Virus record (IMG/VR): IMGVR_UViG_3300042549_004870
Location: 1-37,773 of that record
DNA: 37,773 nucleotides
From: a virus
Strand: one strand, 5' to 3'
This document shows, one piece after another, positions 5,807-34,997 of this stretch. Position numbers and translations under genes: made by a program. The stretch's first letter is position 1; each line of letters opens with the position of its first letter. Under the pieces are notes generated by a model, which did not search any database, was not told the DNA's origin, and worked only from the letters and a program-made list of their open reading frames with translations.

Positions 5807-5807
5807 A

Positions 5808-6440: not shown

Positions 6441-6443
6441 ATT

Positions 6444-7598: not shown

Positions 7599-7599
7599 T

Positions 7600-10889: not shown

Positions 10890-10906
10890 ATGTTATAGTT
10901 TGTTAG

Positions 10907-10938
10907 TAAATATACGAAATATATTTATTATTTCCAAA
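10907..10938 (-). promoter_or_regulatory. Bacteroidota-type promoter P3 inside the glycan block
   Basis: On the minus strand, TTTG (10938-10935, in TTTGGAAA) is followed by 20 bp and TATATTTAC. The leader AACAAACTATAACAT to ATG 10889 shares AACAAAC with P1 and P5. It separates the fusion-Gfo-ATP-grasp-GT group from the upstream glycan genes. Confidence 0.8.
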
Positions 10939-10940
10939 TA

Positions 10941-11585: not shown

Positions 11586-11598
11586 ATTATTATAATTT

Positions 11599-12339
11599 TT
11601 ATTTTCCGTATTTTTGCCAATCGTTATGCATGAATAATCCTTCGTTATGTCCTACTTTATATTCTTGTTGTGCCCACCATTTGCTAATGTTTCCTTCCAA
11701 TGCAATTCCTTCACCCGCGAATGGTTTAACTGTATCTAAGTAAAATTGTTTCTTATAAAGACATGGATTGTTAGTCCAATTACCATATCGAGATGTAGTC
11801 CAAAACATATCTTCGGATTTCTTTATCAAATCAGGAAATTCAACCGATGGGTCTAACCAATGTAATGAATCTAATAAGTGTGGAGATTGACAACCGATTT
11901 CATCATCATAATAAGTAAGTTCTTTACCTTTATGTCTAAATGAAAAGTGAGGATTGCCTGGGTTTACTCTATGTCTTAATCTAACAACATCCATTCCCAT
12001 TTCAATTGCTTGATAACTTCTTTTTAATGTATCGTATGTAGTTTGTTTATTCTCAATCAAATTCCAATCATGTTCTAATACTAAAACATAATCCTCTTTT
12101 GCATTTTCAGTTAAACGGATAAATGCTTGTCCAATTCCTACATTCTTTTGTAGACCAATAAAATCCAATCCAAAGTGTCTTGCAATTTCCATGTCTTGTG
12201 GGGTTACCTCCTGAAATAGAATTGTAACATCGTTTATCATATCAAACAATCCATTTTCGTAATATGTAGTTAGTGTATCTACTAATACTTGTCCACTATG
12301 CCAGGATAATATTCCTATACTAATTGGTAACTTATTCAT
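11599..12339 (-). CDS. GT2-like glycosyltransferase
   Basis: This 246-aa protein has an N-terminal ISIGILSWHSGQVLVDTL typical of GT-A enzymes and VLVLEHDWNLI at about 86-96, with the acidic motif EHD in the DXD position. SEDMFWTTSRYGNWTNNPCL may form the acceptor site. It is followed 13 nt later by the DegT-like gene and preceded by another GT with 3 nt between. The family is clear at fold level only. Confidence 0.78.
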   Translation of the reverse strand: MNKLPISIGILSWHSGQVLVDTLTTYYENGLFDMINDVTILFQEVTPQDMEIARHFGLDFIGLQKNVGIGQAFIRLTENAKEDYVLVLEHDWNLIENKQTTYDTLKRSYQAIEMGMDVVRLRHRVNPGNPHFSFRHKGKELTYYDDEIGCQSPHLLDSLHWLDPSVEFPDLIKKSEDMFWTTSRYGNWTNNPCLYKKQFYLDTVKPFAGEGIALEGNISKWWAQQEYKVGHNEGLFMHNDWQKYGK

Positions 12340-12342
12340 AAT

Positions 12343-13095
12343 TTATTTTTTAATATATTGTCCCAATTCGGAATTGTAAAATGCTTTATAAGATACTGAA
12401 CTACCACCATCATATTGTCTAAAATGATGCTGACCGGATGGTGGATTATTTAATGATTTTACTAATGGAAATGATAACATTTTATTTTCAAAAATCGTTT
12501 CATTAGAATATGGTATTACACATTTGTCTATATTTTTATATCCTAACCAACTACTGATTATCAAATCATCGTTATAATGTTTATTGTACCATTCGTTAAA
12601 AAATTCAGTATCAAACCACTCAGGTTTATAACATATGGACTTATATCCCTCCAATACACCAACTTTAGTGTATATGTGACTTTGCAAACATCCAATAAAA
12701 TTTAAATCACCAAAAGATTCAATTCCAACAGGATATATTCCTGCAAATCCCAAAGCTTCATTTGGAAGCATTTGTGTTAAATTATTATATTCATTTAACA
12801 TTTCACTATGATATATAAAGTCATCATCTACCGTTATTATTCTATCAGTAGTGCGTTTTAATGTATAGTATAATTTTGTTATTGCACCAATATCATCTAC
12901 CCAGAATATTTTTAATCTATCGTCTTTTGGAATATTTAGTTCATCCCACTCACCATTTAAAGGTGATTTTTTGGGAATATTCAAATGAATTTCAAAATTT
13001 GTATAGTTTTGAGAAAGTAAAGAATTTAAATTTTCTTTTAATGATGAATTTCTATTAGGTAAGGTAGTTAATGATATTATAAATTTTTGTTCCAT
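12343..13095 (-). CDS. Glycosyltransferase-like protein, GT-A fold
   Basis: In this 250-aa protein FIISLTTLPNRNSSLKENLN opens a Rossmann-like fold. RIITVDDDFIYHSEML at about 85-100 carries the DDD metal site. The layout resembles the small glycosyltransferases with a TLP.R start and a late DDD motif. Its ATG shares bases with the stop of the FkbM gene (TAATG), consistent with a joint operon. Confidence 0.78.
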   Translation of the reverse strand: MEQKFIISLTTLPNRNSSLKENLNSLLSQNYTNFEIHLNIPKKSPLNGEWDELNIPKDDRLKIFWVDDIGAITKLYYTLKRTTDRIITVDDDFIYHSEMLNEYNNLTQMLPNEALGFAGIYPVGIESFGDLNFIGCLQSHIYTKVGVLEGYKSICYKPEWFDTEFFNEWYNKHYNDDLIISSWLGYKNIDKCVIPYSNETIFENKMLSFPLVKSLNNPPSGQHHFRQYDGGSSVSYKAFYNSELGQYIKK

Positions 13096-13790
13096 TATAT
13101 CTTTTTAAAAAAATTAAATTTAAAATCTTCTTTATTCCTGTTATTTGAATAATCCAATCCTTCAATTGGATATTCTACTGAAATGGGTTTTATTTCATCG
13201 GTTATGTAGTCGGTATTTATGAATGATAATTCATAGACATTTAATATATCATTTCCTTCATAATCAAACATATCACCCCAAGTATTTCCATGTGTGTGAA
13301 CCAATGTAAATCTTTTAGATAATCGTTCCATCATTTTTATAAAATCATCTCTATCTTTATCTTTCTCTAACCAATGTACTTCAATAGATAATCCAATTGT
13401 TAGGTCTGCAATGATATCAATATCTGCAGTTAAAAAATATGGATACTCACCACCCTCAATATCTACTTTTAGATAAACAGGACCATCTATTTTTCTCTGA
13501 AAATAATGATTTATAAAACAATCCATATTTTCGTCAAATCCCAATCCTTGTCTTGTATGATTCAAAAATTCAGGAGGATTATATCCAATTGTGTGGTCAA
13601 ATACAAATATTGGTTTTTTATATTGATTATAAAAATCTAATTCATATCTTATCTCATTACCAACACCATATGTAAACAATGCAACACATTTATCCAACAC
13701 CATTTCAGGCATAACATATCCACCATCTTCATCAGGACCCAATCTTTTCATTTTTAAATTGGTATCCATAGGTTTTAAGTATTTTAACAT
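13095..13790 (-). CDS. FkbM-family SAM-dependent methyltransferase
   Basis: This 231-aa protein has LKVDIEGGEYPYFL at 107-120, the hallmark of FkbM methyltransferases; the acidic DIEG(G)E loop lies at the end of the SAM-binding strand. RLGPDEDGGYVMP near the N-terminus is also typical. FkbM enzymes O-methylate hydroxyls, often of sugars. The gene overlaps its upstream GT by 7 nt. In this locus it probably methylates a glycan residue. Confidence 0.88.
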   Translation of the reverse strand: MLKYLKPMDTNLKMKRLGPDEDGGYVMPEMVLDKCVALFTYGVGNEIRYELDFYNQYKKPIFVFDHTIGYNPPEFLNHTRQGLGFDENMDCFINHYFQRKIDGPVYLKVDIEGGEYPYFLTADIDIIADLTIGLSIEVHWLEKDKDRDDFIKMMERLSKRFTLVHTHGNTWGDMFDYEGNDILNVYELSFINTDYITDEIKPISVEYPIEGLDYSNNRNKEDFKFNFFKKI

Positions 13791-14659
13791 TTCTTATATT
13801 TTTTAAATTGTTCAATTAATTTATCTACTACTTGTACTTGTGTATAATTGTGTAACACTTTCATCATTCCGTTGTGTGCAATTCGTTCTCTTTCTTCTTC
13901 ATTTTCATTGTAATAATTCATCTTCTCTATACAATCAAACATATCATTATATAAAATAATATCTTCACCATCAACGAATAATTCTTCTAAACCTCTACTA
14001 GCATCCAATCTGTCGGTTAATATCAGTTTACCACAGGCCATACCTTCAAAAATTCTACGAGTAATTTCTCCCCATCTACTATTTTGAATAACCATCAATC
14101 CTTTGTTCAAAAATTCAGTATGTTCTTTTGCACCCATTCTATTTTTATTTCCAACTGCACCTTCCGCCCAATGTGTTAGATGGTCTAAAAATTCAGAACC
14201 ACCAATTCCTCTACTCGTTACCGCAACATATTCAGGTTCTAAATTCATTGGGAACTGAACTTTAGTATCTGCAAAATGATTTACCCATTCTGCCTTTATA
14301 CCATTATTAACATAGTGTCTTGCACTTTCTTTATCAGGGGTTATCGTATAATGAAATCTATGTGATTTTGGATAATTCCTAACCCAGTTCTGTGGGTCAT
14401 CTCCACTCTCTTGTATCCAAAATGTATTTGGTTTTAAACTTTTATCCAACCACTTAGAATCTATTCTTCCCCAATCCATAAACAATACAACATCGGTTGG
14501 CGTATCTTGTTGAATCCATAATTGTAATGCTGAATCATCGTTTGCCGTAATAGGTATGATTTCCGTTTCCCACCCACGTTCTTTAAATTCATTTATCAAA
14601 GCCATTGGTGTTGACCAAGTTTCACCATCTTTGTAATCGTATATGAATGTTATTTTCAT
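13784..14659 (-). CDS. GT-B glycosyltransferase, CgeB/YkvP-like
   Basis: In this 291-aa protein the C-terminal half holds RWGEITRRIFEGMACGKLIL and ASRGLEELFVDGEDIILY (about 195-237). That is the donor-binding signature of CgeB-like (Glyco_trans_1_2) enzymes. The N-terminal half is a shortened Rossmann domain. It is flanked by a GT2 and the FkbM methyltransferase with 4- and 7-nt overlaps. Confidence 0.85.
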   Translation of the reverse strand: MKITFIYDYKDGETWSTPMALINEFKERGWETEIIPITANDDSALQLWIQQDTPTDVVLFMDWGRIDSKWLDKSLKPNTFWIQESGDDPQNWVRNYPKSHRFHYTITPDKESARHYVNNGIKAEWVNHFADTKVQFPMNLEPEYVAVTSRGIGGSEFLDHLTHWAEGAVGNKNRMGAKEHTEFLNKGLMVIQNSRWGEITRRIFEGMACGKLILTDRLDASRGLEELFVDGEDIILYNDMFDCIEKMNYYNENEEERERIAHNGMMKVLHNYTQVQVVDKLIEQFKKYKKC

Positions 14660-15279
14660 AAAGTATCGTAATAGTTGTTTTGTCTTTCTTGTCTGTCAAT
14701 CGTTTTTGGATGTTTGATACAATATATTTCTTCAAATGGAAAGTTTGTATAATTTTCAAATCCACCAATTCTTTCGTGTACTTTGCCAGTCCAACCAATT
14801 GTTTCTTTGTTTTTGTATATTCTTGTTTGAACATCTGGGAAATTAACCCAACCTTTTTCATTAACATTCCATTTCCACTTATCAATATGTGACTGAGTTA
14901 ATCCTTCAACGGTATTAATACGGGGAACTAATATTAAATCTTTATCCAAATTGGTATCTAATATATCTTCTAAATTGTAAATTAAATCATTTTCCAAAAA
15001 TTCATCAGCATCCAATTGGAATATCCACTCACCTTTACATTGTGAATTCAATAGATTTTTCCATTGTGCGAAATCATTATCAAATTCAGACTCAATCAAT
15101 GTAATTTTATCTGCATTACCTTGTAATTCCAAATATTCAATTAATTCAATTGGTGACTTTGGTGTATCTAAGAGGACTACTATTTCTGAGTTCTCTCCTT
15201 TGTAGTTTAACAATTGATTCACCAATCTAATTGTTTCTTCAACCTCATTACAGGCCGTTATTGCGTAACTTAATTTCAT
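14656..15279 (-). CDS. GT2-family glycosyltransferase
   Basis: In this 207-aa protein SYAITACNEVEETIRLVNQL is the classic GT2 opening and WIFQLDADEFLENDL at about 85-99 gives the DXD motif (DAD). VQTRIYKN and WTGKVHERI resemble the acceptor loop of the WaaE/KdtX-like branch. The start overlaps the SDR gene by 32 nt, which is long but not unusual here. Confidence 0.85.
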   Translation of the reverse strand: MKLSYAITACNEVEETIRLVNQLLNYKGENSEIVVLLDTPKSPIELIEYLELQGNADKITLIESEFDNDFAQWKNLLNSQCKGEWIFQLDADEFLENDLIYNLEDILDTNLDKDLILVPRINTVEGLTQSHIDKWKWNVNEKGWVNFPDVQTRIYKNKETIGWTGKVHERIGGFENYTNFPFEEIYCIKHPKTIDRQERQNNYYDTL

Positions 15280-16111
15280 TTATATAACTTTTTAATTTAT
15301 CAGTTGGTTGCCATCCTAATCTTTCAATGGTATCGTTATTTAATCTTAATGTTTTTTTATAATTACCTTTCACATCATCCACATATTCTCTTTTAATTTC
15401 ACCAAACATATCTGCAACTTCATTTAAAGAATAGTTTTTACCTGTTCCCAATTCCCACGCATCTTCATGCTTTTCATCACTTTCTGCAATTCGGATTAAA
15501 CCATCTACGATATCGTCAATATGAGTAAAATCTCTCCTCTGTTCACCATCACCATGTATTTTGATTGGTTCTCCGTTTGAAATAGCATTTCTCCATATTC
15601 CAATAACAGCAGCCATATCGGAACTAACTAATTCACCTGGTCCGTACACATTATAGAAACGAGCAATTTCTGCGTTTAATCCATAAACTCCCCTAAACAT
15701 TTTTATCCACTCTTCTCCCATATGCTTTGTTAGTGCGTATGGTGATAACATTGGATTATGATGACGAGATGATGAACCTGCGTAAATTAATTTAGATTTA
15801 TTATGATATACATATTCAACCACTTGCTTAGTACCATCTACATTAACTGAAAATGTTAGTGTTGGATTTTTGAATGAAGGTTGTATTCTACTCAATGCTG
15901 CTAAATGAAATATGTAAGTATAATGTTTATCATCTATATTATTCATAGCTCTAATATCACCACCTAAAAAGTTACATCCGTCTGGTATCTTTGACTCTTT
16001 ACCAATTGAAAGGTTATCTATTACATCAACTTGGTATCCTCTTTTAATTAATTCTATTGATAATGCATATCCAACAAATCCACAACCTCCCGTTACTAAT
16101 GCTGTTTTCAT
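15248..16111 (-). CDS. NAD-dependent nucleotide-sugar epimerase/dehydratase (extended SDR)
   Basis: I chose ATG 16111 (287 aa) over the ATG 36 nt upstream because the protein then begins directly at MKTALVTGGCGFVG and the start forms a TAATG overlap with the gene before. TGGCGFVG (7-14) binds NAD. The active site is Ser around 113-115 and YALTK (Y125, K129). RFYNVYGPGE and IHGDGEQRRDFTHIDDIVDG are nucleotide-sugar features of the UDP-sugar 4-epimerase/dehydratase group. It probably makes or inverts a UDP- or dTDP-sugar for the neighbouring transferases. Confidence 0.9.
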   Translation of the reverse strand: MKTALVTGGCGFVGYALSIELIKRGYQVDVIDNLSIGKESKIPDGCNFLGGDIRAMNNIDDKHYTYIFHLAALSRIQPSFKNPTLTFSVNVDGTKQVVEYVYHNKSKLIYAGSSSRHHNPMLSPYALTKHMGEEWIKMFRGVYGLNAEIARFYNVYGPGELVSSDMAAVIGIWRNAISNGEPIKIHGDGEQRRDFTHIDDIVDGLIRIAESDEKHEDAWELGTGKNYSLNEVADMFGEIKREYVDDVKGNYKKTLRLNNDTIERLGWQPTDKLKSYINEIKLRNNGL

Positions 16112-16485
16112 TAAAATACTTTTTCGTTTGATGTTGTATAACTCCATGCAGAACCACTAGGATACCCATATGTAGTTGATGTACTTCCAAATCCAAATGG
16201 TGGATTAGCTATTGTTATAGAACCACCTCCTGGTGTTGTTGCAATTGTTCCAAATGAACCACTACTACACGTTATTTTATATGGATTGTATGGGTCTACA
16301 TAGTGTGGGTGTTGCCACATTGGAGTAATATTTGGTGTTCCCCATCCACCTTCACCTATTGGAGCTCCATCGTTAACTTCTGCCAATTTTTCTTTTAAGT
16401 AATCCCATTGCTTTGGAGTGATGTTATATTCATGTACTCCTTCCGTAAAACCTTTTAACCAAATAACGAATTCTTTTGATGTCAT
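16111..16485 (-). CDS. Small Gly/Ser-rich protein with phage WLKGF-type N-terminus
   Basis: This 124-aa protein starts FVIWLKGFTEGVHEY, then TPKQWDYLKEKLAEV, a short helical pair I associate with small proteins of large phages. From about 45 on it is rich in Gly, Ser, Thr, Pro and aromatics (GGWGTPNITPMWQHPHYVDP; GSTSTTYGYPSGSAW). That is unlike an enzyme and more like a virion, fibre or adhesive tail. It is encoded in the middle of the glycan block and coupled by TAATG to the SDR. The Ser/Thr-rich tail could be an acceptor for the glycan, which is inference. Confidence 0.6.
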   Translation of the reverse strand: MTSKEFVIWLKGFTEGVHEYNITPKQWDYLKEKLAEVNDGAPIGEGGWGTPNITPMWQHPHYVDPYNPYKITCSSGSFGTIATTPGGGSITIANPPFGFGSTSTTYGYPSGSAWSYTTSNEKVF

Positions 16486-16487
16486 AA

Positions 16488-16961
16488 CTATTTATTTTTT
16501 AATTGGGATTTTTTATCTATACCTATTACATTTTTATTTTTTGGTGTAAGTTGGTTTACATCCATATCCAATTCTATAATTTGTCCAAATCCACTAATCT
16601 TATAAGTTCTATATGAATCATTTGAAACAACTGGAACTTTTGATACAACGGCAGAGTAAAACTTTTTTGCACCTCCTTTCATTTCCAATAATTCAGTATC
16701 TTCATTTATAAATTTACCAAAAAATCTTTTTATAATTTGTGGATTTACATTTGAAACTTTTACAGCATGAACTATATCTTTTGATGCTGATGCAAATAAT
16801 GTATAAATTATTGGTGCATTTGTTTCTGTATATTTACCTTTCGTTCCATCAACATATTCATATTCCTTAATTAAATAAAATCTACCCCTTGTCATTTTTT
16901 TAGGATTTATATAATTTCTTTCGTCTATGAATTTACGATATATTGGATTATAATTTGCCAT
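16488..16961 (-). CDS. Hypothetical phage protein, 157 aa, possible beta-barrel
   Basis: I do not recognise a family with confidence. KKMTRGRFYLIKEYEYVDG and APIIYTLFASASKDIVHAVK suggest a small SH3-like beta-barrel; similar 'short barrel then ...VHAVKV' proteins occur among virion or baseplate-associated proteins of T4-like phages. It is coupled to the GT4 before it (TAATG) and lies 2 nt before the Gly/Ser-rich gene. The two non-enzyme genes sitting together inside a glycan operon is the notable point. Confidence 0.55.
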   Translation of the reverse strand: MANYNPIYRKFIDERNYINPKKMTRGRFYLIKEYEYVDGTKGKYTETNAPIIYTLFASASKDIVHAVKVSNVNPQIIKRFFGKFINEDTELLEMKGGAKKFYSAVVSKVPVVSNDSYRTYKISGFGQIIELDMDVNQLTPKNKNVIGIDKKSQLKNK

Positions 16962-18229
16962 TATTTATTTAACATCTTCAGTTTTGGTAATTGTAATTGT
17001 TGAAACTTTGGTTGTATCTTAGTATAAATACCATACTGATTTAAAATTACATCAAACAATTTAGTCATTTTTTCTAATCCAAAGTTTTGTTTATTTTGTT
17101 TACCCAATTGGAATGATTCAACTTTATATTTGTCATAATTTTTATAAACATCTTTGATTGTAGTCAATGCTTTTGAAATATTTACATTAAACCATTGTGA
17201 TTCTTTTAATAAGAATTGATCTGCTGCAGATTCGTGTACATTTTTTAATTCACCTTCCAATAATACCGCCCCTTGTTTTAAAAAGTCTAAGTGGCCACTC
17301 CAATTAGAAACAATTACAGGTTTACCTGTCAAACTGAATTCCAATAAGGGTCTACCAAATCCTTCACCTTTTGTGAAGTTCAACATAGCCTTTACTTTTG
17401 GGTGTTCATATAATCCATTCATTTCTGATGGAGTTAAATCACCATGTAATAAGTAAATTGGAACAGACTTATAATCTTTACCCAATGTTTCTCTAATCTT
17501 TTTAATAATAGATTCTCTATCTCTTATTGAAAATCCAGCTGAGCTCGTTTTAAGAACTAATGCTGGTTTAATTTTTTCGTTTTTAAATGCCATTGTGAAT
17601 GTTTTAATCATCATTCCAACATTCTTTCTATCTTCTCCCAAATCACCTTTTAACCAATGACCCACAAATAAAAATGCAAAATCTTCTTTGATTGTGTCCA
17701 ATTCCGTAATATGTGCAATATGGTCTATTCCGAAATCCATTTCATCAAATCCTTCAAAAATTATTTCAACCGGTTTTTCAATTCTAATTTGTCTAATTAA
17801 TTGACCAGATTGTTTATCTGCCTCATTATAAACGGTTTTTACTAAACTATCTTTTGAATGTTGAGATGGCACTATAATTAAATCCATTCTATTACAACCA
17901 TGTACCCAATCTATTGCACAATGAGTTGTTTCAATAGCGGCAGTGATACCTATGTTATAATGTCCCAATGGTTGAAACTCATTTGGAACGGTTACTTGAA
18001 TATAGATGTCTGGTTTTTGCTGAATATTCGGTATAATATTATCCACTACCCATTTATGAAATGGTTTGTCATAATTTAATCCATCCATTGGAGTCACTCC
18101 CCAACGAGTACTAATTATTTTGATATCAAATTTATCCAATTTATAAAGAGAATGTAATAAATCTCTCGCGTGGTCACCATACCCACTTCTTGTTGCTACT
18201 GGTGCCTGAAATACTAATGTTGGTTTCAT
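16961..18229 (-). CDS. GT4-family glycosyltransferase (GT-B fold)
   Basis: In this 422-aa protein the C-terminal donor site is LNFTKGEGFGRPLLEFSLTG at about 283-302, followed by KPVIVSNWSGHLDFL, the EX7E-type motif of GT4. FLFVGHWLKGDLGEDRKN at the start of the second Rossmann domain and the N-terminal RSGYGDHARDLL fit the family. It sits 1 nt after the other GT4 gene. It would transfer a sugar with retention from a nucleotide donor. Confidence 0.9.
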   Translation of the reverse strand: MKPTLVFQAPVATRSGYGDHARDLLHSLYKLDKFDIKIISTRWGVTPMDGLNYDKPFHKWVVDNIIPNIQQKPDIYIQVTVPNEFQPLGHYNIGITAAIETTHCAIDWVHGCNRMDLIIVPSQHSKDSLVKTVYNEADKQSGQLIRQIRIEKPVEIIFEGFDEMDFGIDHIAHITELDTIKEDFAFLFVGHWLKGDLGEDRKNVGMMIKTFTMAFKNEKIKPALVLKTSSAGFSIRDRESIIKKIRETLGKDYKSVPIYLLHGDLTPSEMNGLYEHPKVKAMLNFTKGEGFGRPLLEFSLTGKPVIVSNWSGHLDFLKQGAVLLEGELKNVHESAADQFLLKESQWFNVNISKALTTIKDVYKNYDKYKVESFQLGKQNKQNFGLEKMTKLFDVILNQYGIYTKIQPKFQQLQLPKLKMLNK

Positions 18230-18230
18230 A

Positions 18231-19613
18231 TTATAACTCTATTAACTTAAATTTTTGTTTTGGTTTCCAATTTGCAAATGCCCCTTCCATACCTTCAACT
18301 AATGAATCACACATTGCTTCTCTACTTAATTTACCTTCTCCCAAGAAATGTTTTCTACCTTTTAATCCGGCAGTTTCTCTATCTTCTTTTGGCATTTTAT
18401 ACCAACCCATAATTAAAGGACTGATATCTTCAAAATCAATTCTATCATCAAAGATATATGGAGTAGGAACTGAACCTGTTGTTGAACGAACTGGCCAAAT
18501 TGGTGTAACCCAATCTCCCCAAACTACACCCGCCTTTCTATGTCTATCGTGTAGTGAACCTATTTCTACATAATCATCCGCTGTCAATAACTTACCTGTT
18601 CCGTTTTCTCTAAATCCACATTGGTCTTGCAATCCACCAGTTACGTTTACAATGATTGGAGTTCCAGCCATTACAGATTCTGCAGTTGCCAATCCAAATC
18701 CTTCATTAGATGCAACATTGATTGTTACATCTGCCATATTATATAAATAATTTAGTTCGGTTTCCGTATAACGGTTTGATGCAAATATCACATTTGTCTC
18801 TGATAAACAACAATGTTCAATGGTGGTATGTAAATCCGTACCATGTTCTTCAACTGGATTAGTATGCATTAATAAACAAACTTTATCTCTATGTTCAGGT
18901 GACAATGCTTCTACGAATTTGTCAAATGCAAGAATTACATCAATCGGTTGTTTTCTACGAATGTTTCTATTATTCCAATAAAGAACAAATTCATACTCCT
19001 TATCACCAAAAATACTTTTCTTAAAGTCTTGTGGAACATCTACCGGTTTGTATAATTCGGAATTAATTCCATGTGGTACATAACTAACTTGCCAATCGGC
19101 AGGTTTAGTCCAATGTTTTTCTTTATCCCAACTCCAAACTCTTTTGGTAATACCATAAGTTTGTTTTGAAATACAACCAATCCAATCACAACTTTCGTAG
19201 TAATCTCTATTGTATTTTGGGTCTGGTAAATCATCCCAAATATGATAAAAGAATAAAGGCACCGATTGACGGATTTCATGTTCAATATCATATAACCAAA
19301 TCCAATATCTCGGGTCAGTAAAGTGTAAGATTGCATCAGGTTTTTCGGCCATTAATAATTGACGAATTACATCTGCATTACCATATCCATCAAATGGATA
19401 AATTTTTACACTTGCATCTTTTACACCAGTTGATTCTCTCACACTATCATTTAGATCCAAAACCTTACCAGCTTCTGGATGTTTAATTGCAGCTCCTAAC
19501 TGAACCCAATCATACTTGTCAACCGTTCCTAATACTAATTGTTTGGAAACATTGGCGATACCACTCGCCATTCTCAAATCATCTGATAATAACAGAATCT
19601 TCTTTTTTGCCAT
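18231..19613 (-). CDS. GT4-family glycosyltransferase (GT-B fold)
   Basis: In this 460-aa protein ASNEGFGLATAESVMAGTPI at 301-320 is the GT4 donor-binding EX7E motif. LYWNNRNIRRKQPIDVILAF opens the second domain. The N-terminus has MASGIANVSKQLV in the acceptor-side glycine loop. ISKQTYGITKRVW is a typical middle landmark. It is the first gene of the glycan block, starting with AAATAAGTTATG, 25 nt after the nuclease gene. It may share the transcript from promoter 20532-20562. Confidence 0.9.
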   Translation of the reverse strand: MAKKKILLLSDDLRMASGIANVSKQLVLGTVDKYDWVQLGAAIKHPEAGKVLDLNDSVRESTGVKDASVKIYPFDGYGNADVIRQLLMAEKPDAILHFTDPRYWIWLYDIEHEIRQSVPLFFYHIWDDLPDPKYNRDYYESCDWIGCISKQTYGITKRVWSWDKEKHWTKPADWQVSYVPHGINSELYKPVDVPQDFKKSIFGDKEYEFVLYWNNRNIRRKQPIDVILAFDKFVEALSPEHRDKVCLLMHTNPVEEHGTDLHTTIEHCCLSETNVIFASNRYTETELNYLYNMADVTINVASNEGFGLATAESVMAGTPIIVNVTGGLQDQCGFRENGTGKLLTADDYVEIGSLHDRHRKAGVVWGDWVTPIWPVRSTTGSVPTPYIFDDRIDFEDISPLIMGWYKMPKEDRETAGLKGRKHFLGEGKLSREAMCDSLVEGMEGAFANWKPKQKFKLIEL

Positions 19614-21259: not shown

Positions 21260-22207
21260 TTATTTTATAATGTTTAATATTTGTATAATTGTAGACATAA
21301 ATACGATTTCTTTATCTACCACTAATGCATCTTTTGATAATCCATCTGCAATTGTCAAAATCACATTTGCAACATTTCCAGTTGCATACTCATCAACTTT
21401 GTCGTATAACATTGTATACATTTCGGAGTAGTCATTTAATTTGTTATCTGCTACGGCCTGTCTGATATTCATAAACAAATTTCTCTTATCGTCATTTGAT
21501 TTCAATAAGTCAATAAGTTTACTTGCAAAGTTTGATTCAACCATAATTCTATGGTCTACTTTCAATTCTCCTTTTGCAGATTGTAATTGACAAGTATTGA
21601 GTATTCTTCTAATATCTGGGTAATATGAATTAATCACATCAGCCATATTCTTTGGTTCATACTTAATTTTTTCAGCATCTAATATCTTTGCTACCTGAAT
21701 TGCCACATCCTTTTTAGTCGGAGGAGTGATTGCGAAAGATTGACATCTACTTTGGATAGGGTCAATGATTTTCTCAATATAATTACAGGTTAAGATGAAA
21801 CGACAATGCTTACTGAATGTTTCCATTAAGTTTCTCAAAATCGCTTGTGCTCCCGGTGTCATATAATCAAACTCATCTAATATGATTACTTTGAAACCTG
21901 CAAATCCAACCGATGATGCGAAGTTCTTTACTTTTGTTCTAACCGTATCCACATTATTTTCATCCGATGCGTTGATAATCATAAAGTCACATTTGATTGT
22001 GTTTACGATTAACTTTGCAAGTGTGGTCTTACCAGTTCCTGCTTTTCCGTATAACAATAGATGTGGGATATCGTTTGCATCTAAATACTGCTGAATTGTT
22101 TCTTTGATGGTTTCATTACCAACATAGTCTTCCAACTTGTTCGGTCTGTAGCGCTCCACCCAAAGAGTGTTTTCTTGTTTGTTTATGTTATTTGCAAAGA
22201 AACTCAT
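21260..22207 (-). CDS. 44: gp44-like clamp-loader ATPase (AAA+, RFC-like)
   Basis: In this 315-aa protein LWVERYRPNKLEDYVGN is the RFC box II start. Walker A is GKAGTGKTT at 54-62 and Walker B is VIILDEFD ending at 114. FILTCNYIEKII gives sensor 1, and SRCQSF is the SRC arginine-finger motif. With gp62 it forms the loader that opens gp45 on DNA. The homing endonuclease gene ends 20 nt inside its 5' end, so the two reading frames overlap. Confidence 0.96.
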   Translation of the reverse strand: MSFFANNINKQENTLWVERYRPNKLEDYVGNETIKETIQQYLDANDIPHLLLYGKAGTGKTTLAKLIVNTIKCDFMIINASDENNVDTVRTKVKNFASSVGFAGFKVIILDEFDYMTPGAQAILRNLMETFSKHCRFILTCNYIEKIIDPIQSRCQSFAITPPTKKDVAIQVAKILDAEKIKYEPKNMADVINSYYPDIRRILNTCQLQSAKGELKVDHRIMVESNFASKLIDLLKSNDDKRNLFMNIRQAVADNKLNDYSEMYTMLYDKVDEYATGNVANVILTIADGLSKDALVVDKEIVFMSTIIQILNIIK

Positions 22208-22838
22208 AATTTATATTTTTATTATCCAAACACCTATTTCTTATGGTTTTTTCAGCCATTTTCAATTCTAATGATGCTTTTTTTATACTATCGTAATATA
22301 CACCATTTATTTTAATTTTCCTAGCATTTGTTGGTGTTTTTCCAAACATAGGATTTTTTTCTCCAACTAATATTCCAACATTATTTTTATGACCAAAATT
22401 TCCATGTAATTCTCCTGATACCCATTGAGTATTTTGGAATGTTTTTAATCTTTTTTCAATGGCTATTGGTGTTGCTCCTGGATTTCCATTTTTCCATTTG
22501 CCTAATTTGTCTTTTACTCTATTATAAAGTTCGTCACCTTTTTTATAAGTAATACCACCATCACCACCTTCAGTCATATTATATCCATTTTTATATGTGT
22601 CATATTCGTTTATAAAATGTATTTCATATTCATTTAATTTAATACTATCACCACATTCTATTAATATTTCCCATATAAAATTATCTTTACTATATAATCT
22701 TAATGCATTATGAAAATTAGTTGGAGAGTTTTCCATCACTCTTTTATAATGTGCGGATTTTCTTTTAGATAAAGTTTGTTTTGTTTTACCTATATAAATT
22801 TTACCATTTAGTTTGTTAGTAACCTTGTATATTAACAT
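22188..22838 (-). CDS. Free-standing GIY-YIG homing endonuclease
   Basis: In this 216-aa protein the GIY-YIG module is IYKVTNKLNGKIYIGKTKQ, followed by the R/H helix and LNEYEIHFINEYDTYKNGYN with the catalytic Glu. Middle repeats GELHGNFGHKN and GEKNPMFGKTP are NUMOD3-like, and the end (INGVYYDSIKKASLELKM) is a NUMOD1-type HTH. It sits between dUTPase and gp44, genes usually close in T4-like phages, and overlaps gp44. A weak promoter-like TATATTTAT lies upstream (22850s) with AATG instead of TTTG. The protein looks intact. Confidence 0.93.
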   Translation of the reverse strand: MLIYKVTNKLNGKIYIGKTKQTLSKRKSAHYKRVMENSPTNFHNALRLYSKDNFIWEILIECGDSIKLNEYEIHFINEYDTYKNGYNMTEGGDGGITYKKGDELYNRVKDKLGKWKNGNPGATPIAIEKRLKTFQNTQWVSGELHGNFGHKNNVGILVGEKNPMFGKTPTNARKIKINGVYYDSIKKASLELKMAEKTIRNRCLDNKNINYEFLCK

Positions 22839-24394: not shown

Positions 24395-24424
24395 TAATAT
24401 ACGAATAATTTTTTAGAATGCAAA
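24395..24424 (-). promoter_or_regulatory. Bacteroidota-type promoter P5 for gp45
   Basis: On the minus strand, TTTG (24424-24421, inside the last codons of gp43) is followed by 19 bp and TATATTAG. The leader has AACAAACAATAAAATTTAAA. The shared TTCGTATATT around -7 also occurs in P3. Confidence 0.75.
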
Positions 24425-26968
24425 GAATTTCTTTGCTGTTTTTGTATCTGCTGTGACTTTGTCCCATTTTAATGCGTTATAAAAGTCATCTAATTTGTTT
24501 TCCAATTCTGCCATAAATATTTTGTCTCTATCTATGTAAGTTTCAACAAAGTCCATAATCTCTTTTGGGTCATTATAATCTTTGAATGCAAGTGTTTCTA
24601 AACCCAATGGATTATTTTTAAGATATACCCACTTAACTTTATCACCATCTCTAATTGGTTCATTTTTAAATGGACAATTGAAGAACTTAAGTAATCTATT
24701 GTAAGATATTCCGGCTTTAACGTGTGCAGGTGTTCCCTTTTCAAAGCTAGCAATTGATGAACCCGTTTTCCAACTTCCATCATCATATTTACTCAATTCT
24801 TTAATTGCTCCTCCTTTTGCTATTGTATTTACAGGAAGAGTTGGTAAGCTTTTCTTAAATGTCAATAGGGTGTCATCTATGTAATCATGGTCTTTACCCA
24901 TTAAAATATCTTTCAGCATTGTAGACATAAACTTTTGAAATGCTTTTGGGAACGAACTTCTAACTACATCCAATCCTTTCACATCTAACTTATCACACGG
25001 AATACCATTTTTCAAAATCATCCATTGTGCGTATCTTTTCTTTGCTACCCAAAATCCCGCTTTACTGATATATTCTTTTTTAATCTCAAATCTATGTTTC
25101 TCTTTTGGAATAAAGAAAAATCGCTCTGCCAATAGGTCGTAGAATGAGTTTAAGAATGTTTGTGTTTCGGTTGCAATATTGTCTACCTCAACTGCCATTC
25201 TCTTTTCATCAAATGTCTTATATTCTGGGTATCTATGTTTTACCAAAGGTTCTGCCATCATATAAATTGAGTCGGTATCAATATAAACATTGTAGTCATC
25301 GGTTGTTCCTAATTCTTTCCAATATTTTCTATTTGCCATTTCAGCCGTCTTTTTAATTACGACTTGTCCTGTTAGTGTTACCGCCTCCGCATTATCCACA
25401 TCATAGAAACGAAATGCCGGTAGACCTAATACACCATACATTGAGTTCAAAAGGATTTTCTGAACATGTTGTCTTTTACCATAAAATTCATACATTTCGG
25501 TGTTTTTTTCCTCACCATATTTCTTTTCCAACTTACGATATTCCACGCGTTTCTCAAACCATGTATTAAGGATATCCGCAATCAGGCCTGGTTTATCTTG
25601 TATATAAAGAACTCCATTCGCCGCTACACCTAAATTACTATCTTTGATAACATCTGCTAATTCCTGACGGTTATATTCGTATGTATCACCATCTTTACCG
25701 ACTAACTTATATGTAATTTCTTCACCTTTGATATATTGTTCTGCATCCCAATTTGAAATCTTACCAATCTTTGTTTCTGGACTGATGTTTAGTGTCATAA
25801 TGATTGATGGATATAGTGATGTCAAATCCAAATCATAAATCCAATCATACTTTCCAACAATAGGTTCTTTTACATATGCACCTATAAACTTCTCTTGGTC
25901 GTTATCTCTCAAAGCCTGCATTCTTTCTCTCCTATCCGCAGGTTTGTTTGTTGCAACCATTCCTTTTGTTTTAAGGTATGCTAAACAAGCTCCCTCTAAC
26001 CATTTTGACGAAAACATATAATCTTCGTAAGGAACATACCCAGCGTGACATATCGCCCTACATAAATCAATGAATTTTAATTTCTCATCCATTGAAACTA
26101 CTAAGTCCACATCCACAATGTTATATTCAATAAACTTTTCTAAATCGTTTACGAATAAATCATCCAAACTTCCTTCATACTCAACCTTACCTCTACCCAA
26201 TTCTTTCGTTGCGATGTGGTTCAATGTATATGAACTTTCTAAACCGAAATTATATTGTTTGTATAAACTGATGTAATCCAAAATGGATACACCACCGAAA
26301 GACCATTTCTCTCTATATGGTGAATAGAAACATTGTCCGATACGAGATAGTCTTTTTGCATGTCCTTCACCACACACATTTTTAATTCTATTATACAAAT
26401 ATGGAATATCAAAGAAATCTATATTCCACCCCGTAAGAATAGTCGGGTCAATTTCCTCGTAATAATTAAGGAAAGCAAGTAAGAGATTTTTCTCGTTATC
26501 AAAAATGTGAAGAGTAACTTCTCTCCCATCTTTACTAAAGTTTTTGGCATTGTTTTTTACTTTTCGTTCTTTATCTAATACGAATACATCATATAATTTT
26601 GTAGCTCCATCGTGTGCAGCAATTGCTGTTAATTCGTTTTGGGCTTCTCTGGTATTTGGTAATCCTGATATCATTTCAACCTCAATGTCAAAAGTCAAAA
26701 CTCTATGACCTGTTGATGGGATATCACTATCGTAAATGTCTACTAATACTCTTGTAGTTTCAGGAACATCCGATTCAAATAAATCATCGTTATCTTCTTT
26801 TTCCCATTTTGAAATGCGAGTTAATCTTTCACCATTCATTGAAAGATGTTGTCCATGTGGGTCTTTCTTATATGCATACTTTCGGTATGGCATTGTTTGA
26901 TATCCACTTTTGTCATCCCAAAGATGCATTAAATTCTTTTGTCTTTCGTAGTATATATTTTGGTACAT
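24413..26968 (-). CDS. 43: Family B DNA polymerase (gp43-like) with 3'-5' exonuclease
   Basis: This 851-aa protein compares with 898 in T4. Exonuclease motifs: Exo I FDIE (D94, E96), Exo II GWNIDFFDIPYL at 181-191, Exo III YNIVDVD at about 282-288. Polymerase motifs: A DLDLTSLYPS at 379-388, B KILLNSMYG at 504-512, C YIDTDS at 562-567. All metal-binding acidic residues are present. The C-terminus ends AKKFFAF, a likely gp45-binding peptide. The ATG is 2 nt after the DruA-like gene. Confidence 0.98.
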   Translation of the reverse strand: MYQNIYYERQKNLMHLWDDKSGYQTMPYRKYAYKKDPHGQHLSMNGERLTRISKWEKEDNDDLFESDVPETTRVLVDIYDSDIPSTGHRVLTFDIEVEMISGLPNTREAQNELTAIAAHDGATKLYDVFVLDKERKVKNNAKNFSKDGREVTLHIFDNEKNLLLAFLNYYEEIDPTILTGWNIDFFDIPYLYNRIKNVCGEGHAKRLSRIGQCFYSPYREKWSFGGVSILDYISLYKQYNFGLESSYTLNHIATKELGRGKVEYEGSLDDLFVNDLEKFIEYNIVDVDLVVSMDEKLKFIDLCRAICHAGYVPYEDYMFSSKWLEGACLAYLKTKGMVATNKPADRRERMQALRDNDQEKFIGAYVKEPIVGKYDWIYDLDLTSLYPSIIMTLNISPETKIGKISNWDAEQYIKGEEITYKLVGKDGDTYEYNRQELADVIKDSNLGVAANGVLYIQDKPGLIADILNTWFEKRVEYRKLEKKYGEEKNTEMYEFYGKRQHVQKILLNSMYGVLGLPAFRFYDVDNAEAVTLTGQVVIKKTAEMANRKYWKELGTTDDYNVYIDTDSIYMMAEPLVKHRYPEYKTFDEKRMAVEVDNIATETQTFLNSFYDLLAERFFFIPKEKHRFEIKKEYISKAGFWVAKKRYAQWMILKNGIPCDKLDVKGLDVVRSSFPKAFQKFMSTMLKDILMGKDHDYIDDTLLTFKKSLPTLPVNTIAKGGAIKELSKYDDGSWKTGSSIASFEKGTPAHVKAGISYNRLLKFFNCPFKNEPIRDGDKVKWVYLKNNPLGLETLAFKDYNDPKEIMDFVETYIDRDKIFMAELENKLDDFYNALKWDKVTADTKTAKKFFAF

Positions 26969-26970
26969 GA

Positions 26971-28134
26971 TTATCTCCCCACTTCTTTTAAGTATTTTTT
27001 TCTACAATCTTCCCAAGTCATTCCAATTAAATCAATATAAAACAAACTTTCTGGTTTTATTCTACCTTCTTCATACAATTTTGTATATCGTTTGATTGCT
27101 TTATCTTTCCACCAACGAATGGTGTAGTCATCACCTTCTACAAATTTTGGTTTTAATATCAATTCTTCTTCGGTTATTTTATTACAAAGATAATCATTTC
27201 CATTCTCATACATTTGTGCAAAGTAAATACCTCTTTGAAATCCATGATGATATTTGGTAGGACTTATTTGAAGTTCTTTTAATATTAAATTTATAATGTT
27301 TTGTTTTGGACCTGTGGCGTTAATTGCCTTTTCGTATTTTTCTGGATACTTTTCTTTAATGTAATCGTGCCATATTTTGTAAATCCAATTATCAGGTTTT
27401 GTTCCAATTTTACCAGCAGATTCACCCAATGTTTTCATATGAGGAATACCATTATATTGTGAAGATGCTCCGTATAAAGCGGTTGTATGCATTGCCACCA
27501 TTATATCATCATATTGTTCTTTCCACTTATTTCTAAATGTAGGTGATGTTGTTAAAGCTGCAATTAATTTACCACCTAAGAAATTAAATCCTAATGGTTG
27601 AGTTGGTACAATTGAAGTACCCATGGCAATACAATTTAATTTACCTTTTTTGAATTTATCTTCTTTAGTCCAACCAATAAACTCATCCCTTACTTTAACG
27701 GAAACCACATCACTACCCAAACTAATGACACCCAATATCTTACCACTTGTTCTATCTTTTACAAAAGCTTTAAGATTACGACCTGGATTTGCTGTAAACT
27801 CCATTGAACTAATCAATTTTCTAACCTCAGTCCACTTTGAAACATCTTCTACCAATTCAACATATGGTTGCATGTTTTGGATTTCGGATATTGTTAATTC
27901 TTTATTAAAGATGTCCGTTGGTTTCCAAATTTTATCGTAATGTTGTTGTAAAGATGGTAGTTTCATCATAGATGAATGTAAATCCGAATTGAACTCTTGC
28001 CACTTTTTATAGAGTGTTTGTTCTTCAACTGGCATTTCAGACAACATATCTAAATTTCTTATTAATTTTTCTTTGTTTGCTTCAAATACAAACTCTCCAC
28101 CGTTTTCTATGTTACTATCCCAAAATTTGTTCAT
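26971..28134 (-). CDS. DUF4338/DruA-like protein
   Basis: In this 387-aa protein residues about 120-250 resemble DUF4338, the core of Druantia protein DruA: GKILGVISLGSDVVSV, RDEFIGWT at 149-156, MGTSIVPTQPLGFNFLGGKL, and YGASSQYNGIPHMKTLGESA. The last part parallels the 'SYAD..GH.G.IY.A.NW.Y.G' element of the adjacent Mom-like proteins, suggesting a shared acyltransferase (GNAT-like) fold. The first ~100 residues are helical and unrecognised. Family functions are poorly known. Promoter 28140-28170 places transcription start at or within 2 nt of the ATG, so the message is effectively leaderless. The match is by eye and moderate. Confidence 0.65.
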   Translation of the reverse strand: MNKFWDSNIENGGEFVFEANKEKLIRNLDMLSEMPVEEQTLYKKWQEFNSDLHSSMMKLPSLQQHYDKIWKPTDIFNKELTISEIQNMQPYVELVEDVSKWTEVRKLISSMEFTANPGRNLKAFVKDRTSGKILGVISLGSDVVSVKVRDEFIGWTKEDKFKKGKLNCIAMGTSIVPTQPLGFNFLGGKLIAALTTSPTFRNKWKEQYDDIMVAMHTTALYGASSQYNGIPHMKTLGESAGKIGTKPDNWIYKIWHDYIKEKYPEKYEKAINATGPKQNIINLILKELQISPTKYHHGFQRGIYFAQMYENGNDYLCNKITEEELILKPKFVEGDDYTIRWWKDKAIKRYTKLYEEGRIKPESLFYIDLIGMTWEDCRKKYLKEVGR

Positions 28135-28139
28135 ACATG

Positions 28140-28170
28140 TAATATACTAAAAATTATCCAAATTACCAAA
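28140..28170 (-). promoter_or_regulatory. Bacteroidota-type promoter P6, leaderless
   Basis: On the minus strand, TTTG (28170-28167, in TTTGGTAA) is followed by 20 bp and TATATTACATG. Only 5 nt separate the -7 box from ATG 28134, so the start codon would be at or near the 5' end of the RNA. The -33 box overlaps the end of the second Mom-like gene. Confidence 0.8.
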
Positions 28171-28966
28171 ACTTACTTGCCAACTCCGTTTCAGGTGCAA
28201 TTGTAGTATGGAGTTCTATGTCCTTATTAAATTCTCTTGTATCTTTTGGATAATTTTTAGGGTTGTGTTTAAGAGTTTTAAGTAATTCTCTTTTTTCTTT
28301 TTTATCTGCACCCAATACCTGTATGTATCTATGTTTTGGTGGTTCTTCCCTTCTCCAAAATTGTTTATATCCTTGCTTACCTATTTCTCTCCTAAGATGT
28401 TCTAAATTACCACTACCCCACATTGAAAACACAGTTCTACTATGAATCCATTTGTAAGGGTCATTTGAAAGTGATATTCCGTAATTTGGCATCAATGCAA
28501 TATCGGTATTCATTCCTTGATAAATCCAATTGGTTGCCTGATAAATGCCTCCTAAATGTTCTTGTCCGTTATCTGCGTATGAGATTAAGATTTTAATTGC
28601 TTTATCATTTTCTCTAAACCACTTAAACGATTGTCCTAACGCATATGACTCAATGTTTGAACCATATCCATCATCACAATACAATCGTGTCAATTCTAAA
28701 ATGTTATCTTTTGTAATTGAATCTGAAACCGAATTTGCGGCTCTTGCACCTACTGGGAATCCATACACTAAACATCCAATCAATTTATCACTATCTCCTA
28801 ATGCATTTGACTCATCGGTTTTGTAAAAGATACCCAATGAATATCTACACGCAGTCCATGCATGTGTATAGTGTTTCTTAACTATAATTTCTTTTGCAAC
28901 TGAACTACTTATTTCTCTAACCGATACTCTACTCGTATCACAATATAACTTATTTAACTCTTTCAA
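28163..28966 (-). CDS. Mom-like DNA base-modifying acyltransferase family protein
   Basis: This 267-aa protein has IIVKKHYTHAWTACRYSLGI with His-Tyr at 32-33. It then has LIGCLVYGFPVG, LELTRLYCDDGYGSNIES, and LISYADNGQEHLGGIYQATN with D132 and Y142. The His-Tyr pair plus Asp and Tyr ten residues apart match the residues I recall for the active site of phage Mu Mom, which converts adenine to an acetamido-like N6 form. The C-terminal KHRYIQVLG.DKKEKRELLK is shared with its neighbour. It overlaps the upstream Mom-like gene by 17 nt; the two are paralogues. Which base or group it modifies is unknown. Confidence 0.85.
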   Translation of the reverse strand: MKELNKLYCDTSRVSVREISSSVAKEIIVKKHYTHAWTACRYSLGIFYKTDESNALGDSDKLIGCLVYGFPVGARAANSVSDSITKDNILELTRLYCDDGYGSNIESYALGQSFKWFRENDKAIKILISYADNGQEHLGGIYQATNWIYQGMNTDIALMPNYGISLSNDPYKWIHSRTVFSMWGSGNLEHLRREIGKQGYKQFWRREEPPKHRYIQVLGADKKEKRELLKTLKHNPKNYPKDTREFNKDIELHTTIAPETELASKFW

Positions 28967-29717
28967 TTGGTTCTAATTTTAATATTTCTTCAGTATATTT
29001 TTCTAATGTTTTTGGATATGAATATAAAGGATGTTTTATATTTTTCAACAATTCCTTTTTATCTTTTTTATCTTTGCCCAAAATGTAGATATACCTATGT
29101 TTCTTTGGTTCTCTTTTTACCCAAAATGGTTTATCAATAAGTTCTTGTAATTTGAAAGGTGAGGTCGTTCCCCAATAAGGTGCCATAGTTCTACCATGTA
29201 TCCATTTACCACCTTCTTCAAAACGAAAAGACCATGTGTCGTTTGGTCTAATACTTGTTCCTTGATATAACCAATTTGTTGCCTGATATATTTGTCCTTT
29301 GTGTCCTTGCACAGGGTCGGAGTATGATATCAATGCTCTTATTTGTTTTGCGTTTTCTTTTAACCATTCAAAGGACTTTCCGACAAACCAACTTTCAATG
29401 TTACAACCATAACCGTCAAATACAAAAAGTCTTACTAATTCCATCACTTCCGTTCTATCCAATGTTTCACTTATAGATGCTCCACAATGTCTACCAATCG
29501 GGTCACCATAACAAATTACTCCAATTAGTTCCTGATTTATTCCACCAAAGAATTTATGTTCGGTGTCATTTTCGTAGAACAAACCTAATGCGTAACTAAC
29601 TTTTGTCCATTGTTTAGAATAATGATGCTTTACTATTATATTCTTTGCAACCGACTTTTCTATTAACCTTACACTAAACTTGGAAGTATCACAATATTGT
29701 TTATCTTGTACTTTCAT
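28950..29717 (-). CDS. Mom-like DNA base-modifying acyltransferase family protein
   Basis: This 255-aa protein is close in architecture to the downstream paralogue: a shared start (KQYCDTSKFSVR), KHHYSKQWTKVSYALGLF with His-Tyr at 32-33, MELVRLFVFDGYGCNIES, LISYSDPVQGHKGQIYQATN with D134 and Y144, and PKKHRYIYILGKDKKDKKEL. Sequence drift between the two is large, so this is not a recent duplication. Its ATG lies within the end of the HTH gene, so the HTH protein and both Mom-like proteins form one transcript from promoter 29910-29940. Keeping two copies suggests different targets or a heteromer. Confidence 0.85.
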   Translation of the reverse strand: MKVQDKQYCDTSKFSVRLIEKSVAKNIIVKHHYSKQWTKVSYALGLFYENDTEHKFFGGINQELIGVICYGDPIGRHCGASISETLDRTEVMELVRLFVFDGYGCNIESWFVGKSFEWLKENAKQIRALISYSDPVQGHKGQIYQATNWLYQGTSIRPNDTWSFRFEEGGKWIHGRTMAPYWGTTSPFKLQELIDKPFWVKREPKKHRYIYILGKDKKDKKELLKNIKHPLYSYPKTLEKYTEEILKLEPIERVK

Positions 29718-29904
29718 ATGGCCACTTAACCATGTGTTTCCACGTTTCGTTTGTAACTATTTTCTTAATGTTTGCAGGTGATACTCCATAGTTCCTAGCT
29801 ATTACATTAATATTTCTATGACCTATTTTATATAGTTCCCTAATTTGCAATATCTGCTCTTCCGTCAGTTTATGCATTGGATGTAATTCACCTACTAATT
29901 TCAT
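29701..29904 (-). CDS. Small HTH protein (NUMOD-like), leaderless start
   Basis: I set the start at ATG 29904 (67 aa). The frame is open to a GTG at 29931, but that codon is inside the promoter spacer. GELHPMHKLTEEQILQIREL, then IARNYGVSPANIKKIVTNET, is the HTH found at the C-terminus of many homing endonucleases (GE.....LTEE.V..IR..Y ... IA..YGVS..TI..I). No nuclease domain is present. It is either a freestanding relic of such a nuclease or a small DNA-binding regulator of the Mom-like genes it precedes. Confidence 0.7.
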   Translation of the reverse strand: MKLVGELHPMHKLTEEQILQIRELYKIGHRNINVIARNYGVSPANIKKIVTNETWKHMVKWPYESTR

Positions 29905-29909
29905 ATGTC

Positions 29910-29940
29910 TAATATAACTAATTTTTCTCACAATACCAAA
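29910..29940 (-). promoter_or_regulatory. Bacteroidota-type promoter P7, leaderless, for HTH-Mom-Mom
   Basis: On the minus strand, TTTG (29940-29937, in TTTGGTAT) is followed by 20 bp and TATATTAGACATATG. The -7 box ends 5 nt before ATG 29904. Together with P4 and P6 it forms a subset with little or no leader. Confidence 0.8.
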
Positions 29941-32445: not shown

Positions 32446-33045
32446 TCAATTTTTCTTTAATGGATAAGTGTATATATTTTTAGGTAATGTTTCTATCACC
32501 CTAACCCCCACATCCTTTGCTTTGTATCTTCTATTTATCTCCACACCATATGGTCTGTCTAACATAGATAAAGTTCTAATGTGAAATGATTTACCATCTA
32601 CTTCTAATTTTTTACCCGAACTTGTTTTACCCAAATATTTAAAATTAGATGCCTTGTATATAACCCCACTATGTCCTTGTTCTTCGTCTGCGTAAGATAT
32701 AACAAATTCCCAATCTGTGTTTTGTCTCAACCATCTCAAAGTTCTTCCAACAAAGAAAGACTCTGCGTTTTTGGGTGTTTCGTCAATTAAACACAATCTT
32801 CGTAATTCTAACACTCTATCGGGTGCTTTTGGATAGTATGTTTGTCCTGCAGATGGGCCTGCGGGCCTTGTATATATGCAAACTCCTATCATTTCGGGAA
32901 TATCAAACTTACCATTTTTGAATAAACAAAAAGTATGTTTTGCTTGTATATTTACATAATCGGAATAGTGCCATTTTTTAAGAAATTTTCTAACCGTATG
33001 ATTAAAAGTTGTTTCTTGAACTATATAAGATTTTACTTCACTCAT
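32446..33045 (-). CDS. Third Mom-like acyltransferase family protein
   Basis: This 199-aa protein has FLKKWHYSDYVNIQAKHTFC (His-Tyr at 26-27), MIGVCIYTRPAGPSAG, VLELRRLCLIDETPKNAES, and ISYADEEQGHSGVIYKASNF with D120 and Y130. The HY and D-x9-Y layout of the other two is kept. It is shorter, lacking the C-terminal KHRY extension, and is more divergent. It sits 2 nt after gp41 helicase, so it is co-transcribed with replication genes and apart from the other pair. Confidence 0.8.
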   Translation of the reverse strand: MSEVKSYIVQETTFNHTVRKFLKKWHYSDYVNIQAKHTFCLFKNGKFDIPEMIGVCIYTRPAGPSAGQTYYPKAPDRVLELRRLCLIDETPKNAESFFVGRTLRWLRQNTDWEFVISYADEEQGHSGVIYKASNFKYLGKTSSGKKLEVDGKSFHIRTLSMLDRPYGVEINRRYKAKDVGVRVIETLPKNIYTYPLKKN

Positions 33046-34682: not shown

Positions 34683-34997
34683 TTATCTAATAACCATTAA
34701 TAATTCCGATTCTCTAAGTAAGATGTATTTGTTACCACCTACTTTAATTTCTACTCCCTGATGATATGGTGGAAGAATTACTTCATCACCTACTTTTACA
34801 CTCATTGGAATTGCTACTCCAGATTGTGTATAGATTCCGTCACCTACGGCTTCTACTCTTGCTCTTTTTACATCTTCCGATTTTGCACTATCTGGGATGA
34901 TAATACCACCGGCAGTTTTTGAAGCTTCTGCCTCTAATTCACTCAATAGGACTCTGTCTCCTAATGGTTTTGCTAATTTGTCTGCTGACTTTGCCAT
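34683..34997 (-). CDS. groES: GroES-like co-chaperonin
   Basis: In this 104-aa protein PLGDRVLLSELEAEASKTAG, then GIIIPDSAKSED, gives the first strand and the mobile loop (about 21-41) with the hydrophobic tripeptide III. VGDEVILPPYHQGVEIKVGG is the core barrel. It caps host GroEL. In T4 the gp31 version allows folding of the large capsid protein; a similar job is likely here. No GroEL gene is in the window. It starts 12 nt after the exonuclease gene with an A-rich leader. Confidence 0.95.
   Translation of the reverse strand: MAKSADKLAKPLGDRVLLSELEAEASKTAGGIIIPDSAKSEDVKRARVEAVGDGIYTQSGVAIPMSVKVGDEVILPPYHQGVEIKVGGNKYILLRESELLMVIR

Follow-up and report, generated by a model that had tools for sequence, protein, structure and literature searches.

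A stand-alone DruA-family protein of a T4-like phage with a predicted Mom-like GNAT fold

Introduction

Why would a phage carry a gene of the DruA/DUF4338 family, to which the DruA protein of the Druantia type I defence system belongs, beside genes for Mom-like DNA modification proteins? The question is raised by a 37.8-kb virus contig from IMG/VR (record IMGVR_UViG_3300042549_004870), here called the window and analysed over its whole length of 37,773 nucleotides. A sequence-only reading of this DNA had proposed that DruA-like and Mom-like proteins share a fold and a chemistry, and that the phage copy could modify DNA or counter a defence.

The DUF4338 domain has been termed a GNAT domain (PMC10853773), and the Phold paper describes DruA-like proteins, found by structure, in six Synechococcus phages (PMC12774648). 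A review lists Druantia among the systems relying on DNA modification (PMC12904381), and the same review notes that phages can promote methylation to counter type I Druantia (Druad1). DNA hypermodification is known in cyanophage S-B43 (PMC12783734). Within the literature searched, which left most subscription papers out of reach, no statement was found on a link between DruA and Mom or on what DruA does in Druantia type I. The GNAT fold of DUF4338 and the DruA-like cyanophage proteins are thus already published; for the DruA-Mom link no published statement was found.

Results

Gene order around druA

The window has a T4-like make-up and derives from an environmental phage. It encodes a gp32-like protein, UvsX, a DnaB-like helicase, a ribonucleotide reductase, a family B DNA polymerase and an AAA clamp-loader-like ATPase, in agreement with the phage location given by the earlier reading. 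The open reading frame that had been picked out as DruA-like is real, but is encoded on the minus strand (Table 1). The Mom-like genes that had been noted beside it were confirmed as two neighbours (Pfam Mom, E about 1e-43), and a third was found further along. Read along the minus strand, the genes are helicase, mom3, ribonucleotide reductase, thioredoxin, HTH, mom2, mom1, druA and polymerase, with overlaps between HTH and mom2 and between mom2 and mom1. Judged from the letters, druA and the polymerase gene are likely to be translationally coupled through the GGGGAG inside the end of druA. By its polymerase, the closest isolate is Microcystis phage Mel-JY01 (49%), which has different genes at the position matching that of druA.

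Three further features of the window lie outside this gene group. A large glycan-type cluster contains glycosyltransferases, a GFO/IDH/MocA oxidoreductase, an ATP-grasp protein, a NAD epimerase and a radical-SAM/glycosyltransferase fusion; surface glycan synthesis and DNA glycosylation are possible purposes. A GroES-like co-chaperonin is encoded inside the replication region, and a GIY-YIG-type homing endonuclease was also present.

Table 1. Features of the window discussed in the text.
Feature	Coordinates	Strand	Evidence
druA, DruA-family (PF14236) GNAT-fold protein (predicted), 387 aa	26971..28134	-	Pfam, PADLOC, AF2 model
mom1, Mom-like DNA modification protein	28163..28966	-	Pfam Mom E 6e-43; PHROG 1384 Mom-like
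mom2, Mom-like DNA modification protein	28950..29717	-	Pfam Mom E 4e-43; phmmer match to Mu Mom 8bv8 E 2e-6
Small HTH protein, overlaps mom2	29701..29931	-	Pfam HTH_7 E 3e-5; order kept in related contigs
mom3, third Mom-like gene, adjoins DnaB-like helicase	32446..33045	-	PHROG 1384 E 9e-46; Pfam Mom E 8e-36
Family B DNA polymerase	24413..26968	-	Pfam DNA_pol_B E 2e-34; start 2 nt past druA stop codon
Shine-Dalgarno-like GGGGAG of polymerase gene, within last druA codons	26975..26980	-	Read from sequence
Glycan-type cluster	4110..19613	-	
Radical-SAM/glycosyltransferase fusion, part of glycan-type cluster	8715..10889	-	
GroES-like co-chaperonin (Cpn10)	34683..34997		Pfam E 5e-25
GIY-YIG-type homing endonuclease	22188..22838		

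Family membership

The window protein is a true member of the DruA/DUF4338 family, far beyond chance. It matches Pfam PF14236 with 81.8 bits (cut-off 27; E 6e-23), PADLOC DruA1 with an E-value of 1.7e-21 and PHROG 19197 with 1e-32, and the motifs read earlier as DUF4338-like are in place, RDEFIGWT at residues 149-156 and GGKLIA at residues 187-192. An N-terminal helical region (about 12-87) is followed by the GNAT core (about 88-310) and a C-terminal region (311-387). No match to Pfam Mom was obtained at E-values up to 10.

Spread and conservation in phages

A relative of the window DruA is encoded in 220 candidate stretches of IMG/VR, and among the best 80 of these the gene order is the same as in the window in dozens of contigs. 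Of these 80 loci, 38 have Mom immediately upstream of druA, no more than 70 nt away, and 17 have it at another place in the locus; another 10 loci end prematurely and 15 show no Mom. Close pairs of druA genes gave a dN/dS of about 0.05, which denotes purifying selection. Relatives were also found in the Pelagibacter phages Mosig and HTVC008M and in some 25 Synechococcus phage records, and scans with proteins from these phages yielded 117 and 420 further viral stretches. The gene is widespread among T4-like phages of fresh water and the sea.

In cyanophages druA is located between the genes for clamp-loader subunits, and in pelagiphages near gp46/gp47-type genes. Mom is present in 10 of 20 DruA-bearing phage records, all 10 with a DruA of the window type. 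It was not found in the other 10, among them the 147-kb genome of HTVC008M, with the reservation that many records may be fragments, nor in the cyanophage-type records searched. On these counts the idea that DruA always accompanies Mom was rejected, and the pairing is lineage-specific; the general tie of druA is thus to replication, and its tie to Mom belongs to one lineage. Pelagiphage-type records G008, G010, G011 (HTVC008M) and G019 have two DruA-family genes each.

The Druantia helicase DruE was not found in the window or in 19 related phage records, some of which are fragments, and none of ten other window proteins scanned matched a Druantia component. The DruE model matched 13 of 14 control genomes by helicase similarity, so that its absence from the phages is informative and a match elsewhere is not. 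Since DruE was found in none of the 20 phage records, the window druA is not part of a Druantia system.

Family tree and cellular relatives

A tree of 62 representatives, in which some branches are long and the exact joins unsure, splits with a support of 100/100 into a short and a long clade. The short clade holds phage DruB and short cellular DUF4338 proteins; cellular DruA of the Druantia type falls in the long clade, as does every long phage DruA. The window DruA therefore groups with a DruE-linked DruA, since the long clade includes L287, a cellular long DruA adjoining DruE (PADLOC DruA1, 7.5e-108). The long phage DruAs form one deep clade of their own, apart from cellular DruA (94/79), for which reason the idea that the phage gene was recently acquired from a host's defence genes was rejected.

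The cellular locus of L287 (539-11488) is a Druantia-like operon with the order DruE-DruA-NurA-like-HerA. Open reading frames of comparable sizes follow DruA in L283, L284, L286 and L292, and L290 has the order HerA-DruA-Shedu. DruA may be paired with HerA/NurA nucleases.

The short DUF4338 proteins measure about 295 aa, and one adjoins an IS66 transposase (L272). In one related phage stretch (L058, 4438-5163) a short DruA, here DruB, is encoded between HTH and mom1, the slot that mom2 fills in related phages, which suggests a functional kinship of DruB and Mom.

Predicted structure and the link to Mom

The AlphaFold2 model of the window DruA, made from 61 sequences, had a pLDDT of 90.1 and a pTM of 0.86. 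Foldseek against the PDB returned mainly GNATs as top matches, with weak E-values of 0.02 and above. In a second look with VIA-align, phage Mu Mom (8bv8) was the top match of all PDB chains aligned, with a Z of 10.3 and an rmsd of 4.1 A over 183 residues, a small lead over the next matches, which were GNATs with a Z of 9.0 over about 142 residues. For the DruB model (pLDDT 85.9) Mom was again first, with a Z of 15.7 against 13.9 for the next match. GNATs dominate both lists for the window model, so that the protein is predicted to have a GNAT fold, and the best PDB match points to a Mom-like one. Strong matches to the window model were also found among predicted structures of giant-virus proteins in BFVD, namely A0A3G4ZXG3, A0A5K0UAJ3 and A0A3G4ZRA1 (E 1e-19 to 5e-10), from Faunusvirus, Yasminevirus and Dasosvirus; these are DruA-like folds beyond bacteria and phages.

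At the profile level, short DUF4338 (A7) and Mom (A4) were matched by hhalign at 96.3% with a score of 70.8; no score above 24.4 was reached in 100 column shuffles, and the reversed profile scored 21. Phage DruB alone matched Mom at 95.1% over 184 columns. Short DUF4338 in turn matched the Druantia-type long DruA at 99.2% and the window-type DruA at 96.8%. Direct hhalign comparison of the long DruA profiles (A8, A1, A6) with Mom gave nothing above background, and an HMM search of PDB sequences with the DruA profiles found no Mom. Because the direct profile comparison fails, the link between DruA and Mom rests on the short DUF4338 intermediate together with structure. Model and profile comparisons with DruA, Mom and GNAT proteins accordingly returned similarity to DruA and GNATs, and the shared DruA-Mom fold proposed from the sequence is supported by Mu Mom as the best structural match and by the short DUF4338 profile link.

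Active-site residues

The earlier reading had set LGESAGK (residues 236-242) in parallel with the NW.Y.G element of Mom. This parallel stands by way of the short DUF4338 intermediate, in which NW..vG.T.G aligns both to NW.Y.G of Mom and to HMKTLGESAG of the window protein; the NW itself is absent. The window DruA is without the HY and NW elements of Mom, and it and its close orthologues carry HFK or HMK at the place of NW.

Structure 8bv8 is titled as the S124A inactive mutant, and its chain has Ala at the position of the invariant NxES serine in the phage Moms studied here; S124 is therefore most likely this serine. DruB has S or T at the position. The window family has an invariant Gly188, aligned to the serine via short DUF4338 with a one-residue uncertainty in one alignment, and Mom's conserved NxES serine is thus absent from the window DruA. 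Conserved in the window family are G118-R119, R149-D150, G187-G188-K189-L190, T217-T218, S225, Y227, G237 and R301, most of them common to cellular DruA. A likeness of QPLGFN (residues 179-184) to the Q/RxxGxG/A loop is visible by eye only.

A chemistry identical to that of Mom is not supported, because Gly replaces the conserved Ser and no direct sequence match exists. The chemistry of the window DruA is probably not identical to Mom's and may be shared with Druantia's DruA. The shared chemistry proposed earlier is therefore plausible in part; the serine and a significant direct profile match to Mom are both missing.

Discussion

Proposed role of the window DruA

The window DruA is a stand-alone phage member of DruA/DUF4338, and probably a GNAT-fold enzyme distantly related to Mom. 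That it modifies phage DNA during replication as a GNAT-type enzyme is, in our estimate, evenly balanced between right and wrong. Presumably expressed together with the Mom paralogues and replication genes, it would most likely transfer an acyl-type group, possibly from a CoA thioester, onto bases of newly synthesised phage DNA, acting alongside or after Mom, and DNA so modified would escape recognition by host nucleases. Enzymatic activity, DNA as substrate and protection as purpose are all points that we infer. The earlier suggestion of DNA modification or counter-defence is plausible in this light, and the position in a replication operon, with a relative sharing the mom slot, makes DNA modification more likely than a role directed specifically against Druantia. 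Most likely, DruA works with replication as a DNA-modifying GNAT and, in this lineage, with Mom.

The rival that survives best, although itself unlikely, is a GNAT acyltransferase whose substrate is a tRNA, a small molecule or a protein, such as one of the replisome or the host, with the likeness to Mom owed only to common GNAT ancestry. The range of substrates that GNATs acetylate is wide, the scores of SpeG and other GNATs on the window model come close to that of Mom, Mom's catalytic-type serine is absent, and an action on proteins has been proposed for a DUF4338 fused to DndF (PMC10853773). Against it, the window and DruB models both have Mom as their best match, the short DUF4338 profile links to Mom, and the gene is recurrently sited near Mom and in replication gene clusters.

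We give little credence to a decoy by which the phage copy poisons the host Druantia complex. The grouping with the subfamily containing the DruE-linked copy and the lack of any DruE found in phages would suit such a decoy, but the long phage DruAs are one deep clade and not recent captures, their core residues are conserved under strong purifying selection, and the gene is retained by phages whose hosts differ widely, Pelagibacter among them. Similarly improbable is an accessory protein that binds DNA without catalysis and assists replication or Mom. Siting by polymerase, clamp loader and Mom, a predicted pI of 8.7 with a net positive core and the missing Mom active-site residues are in its favour; the invariant polar residues R149, D150, K189, T217, T218, S225, Y227 and R301 are more typical of an enzyme, and most of them are common to cellular DruA. 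A role in defence against competing phages, with the gene as a one-gene remnant of Druantia, has the PADLOC label DruA1 for it and is very improbable given DruE in 0 of 20 records and a T4-like context within the replication core.

The preferred reading, a DNA-modifying GNAT, can be extended to DruA proteins generally, Druantia's included, as Mom-related nucleobase-modifying enzymes. Bacterial DruA would then mark DNA as self or sense marks for the DruE helicase, and a solitary DruA in T4-like phages, together with up to three Mom enzymes, would carry out a multi-step hypermodification of viral DNA. This extension is speculative and we hold it to be rather doubtful.

The evolutionary link between DruA and Mom provides a concrete hypothesis for DruA, namely that it modifies DNA as a GNAT-type enzyme. 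It also puts forward, as a candidate for DNA modification, a gene that is common in T4-like phages of the sea and fresh water and has been overlooked. Isolated phages like HTVC008M are natural test cases: since they have DruA and no detectable Mom, the DNA of a single phage could be analysed for a base made by DruA.

Comparison with known systems

The DruA of Druantia type I (PF14236; PADLOC DruA1) belongs to the same family and the same long subfamily as the window DruA, with the common core GR..G..RD..IGW..GGKL..TT..G.SS.YN..G.T.G. Unlike in Druantia type I, where DruE and other Druantia genes accompany DruA, the window DruA stands alone with Mom and polymerase as neighbours; it also has its own N-terminal helical region and falls in the deep phage clade.

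Phage Mu Mom (8bv8; PF25680) has a similar predicted fold, over 183 of 222 residues, and is linked by profile via short DUF4338. Unlike Mu Mom, the window DruA is much longer, matches it nowhere directly in sequence and does not conserve the NxES serine, HY or NW.

The DruA-like proteins of Synechococcus phages (PHROG 19197; PMC12774648) fall in the same long DruA clade as the window DruA and differ in their place between clamp-loader genes and in that no Mom gene was found in the cyanophage-type records searched. Short DUF4338 and phage DruB are homologous to the window DruA (hhalign 97-99%) and have RD..IGW and G.T.G in common with it; short DUF4338 retains the Mom-like HY, N..S/T and Y.A.NW that the window DruA has lost.
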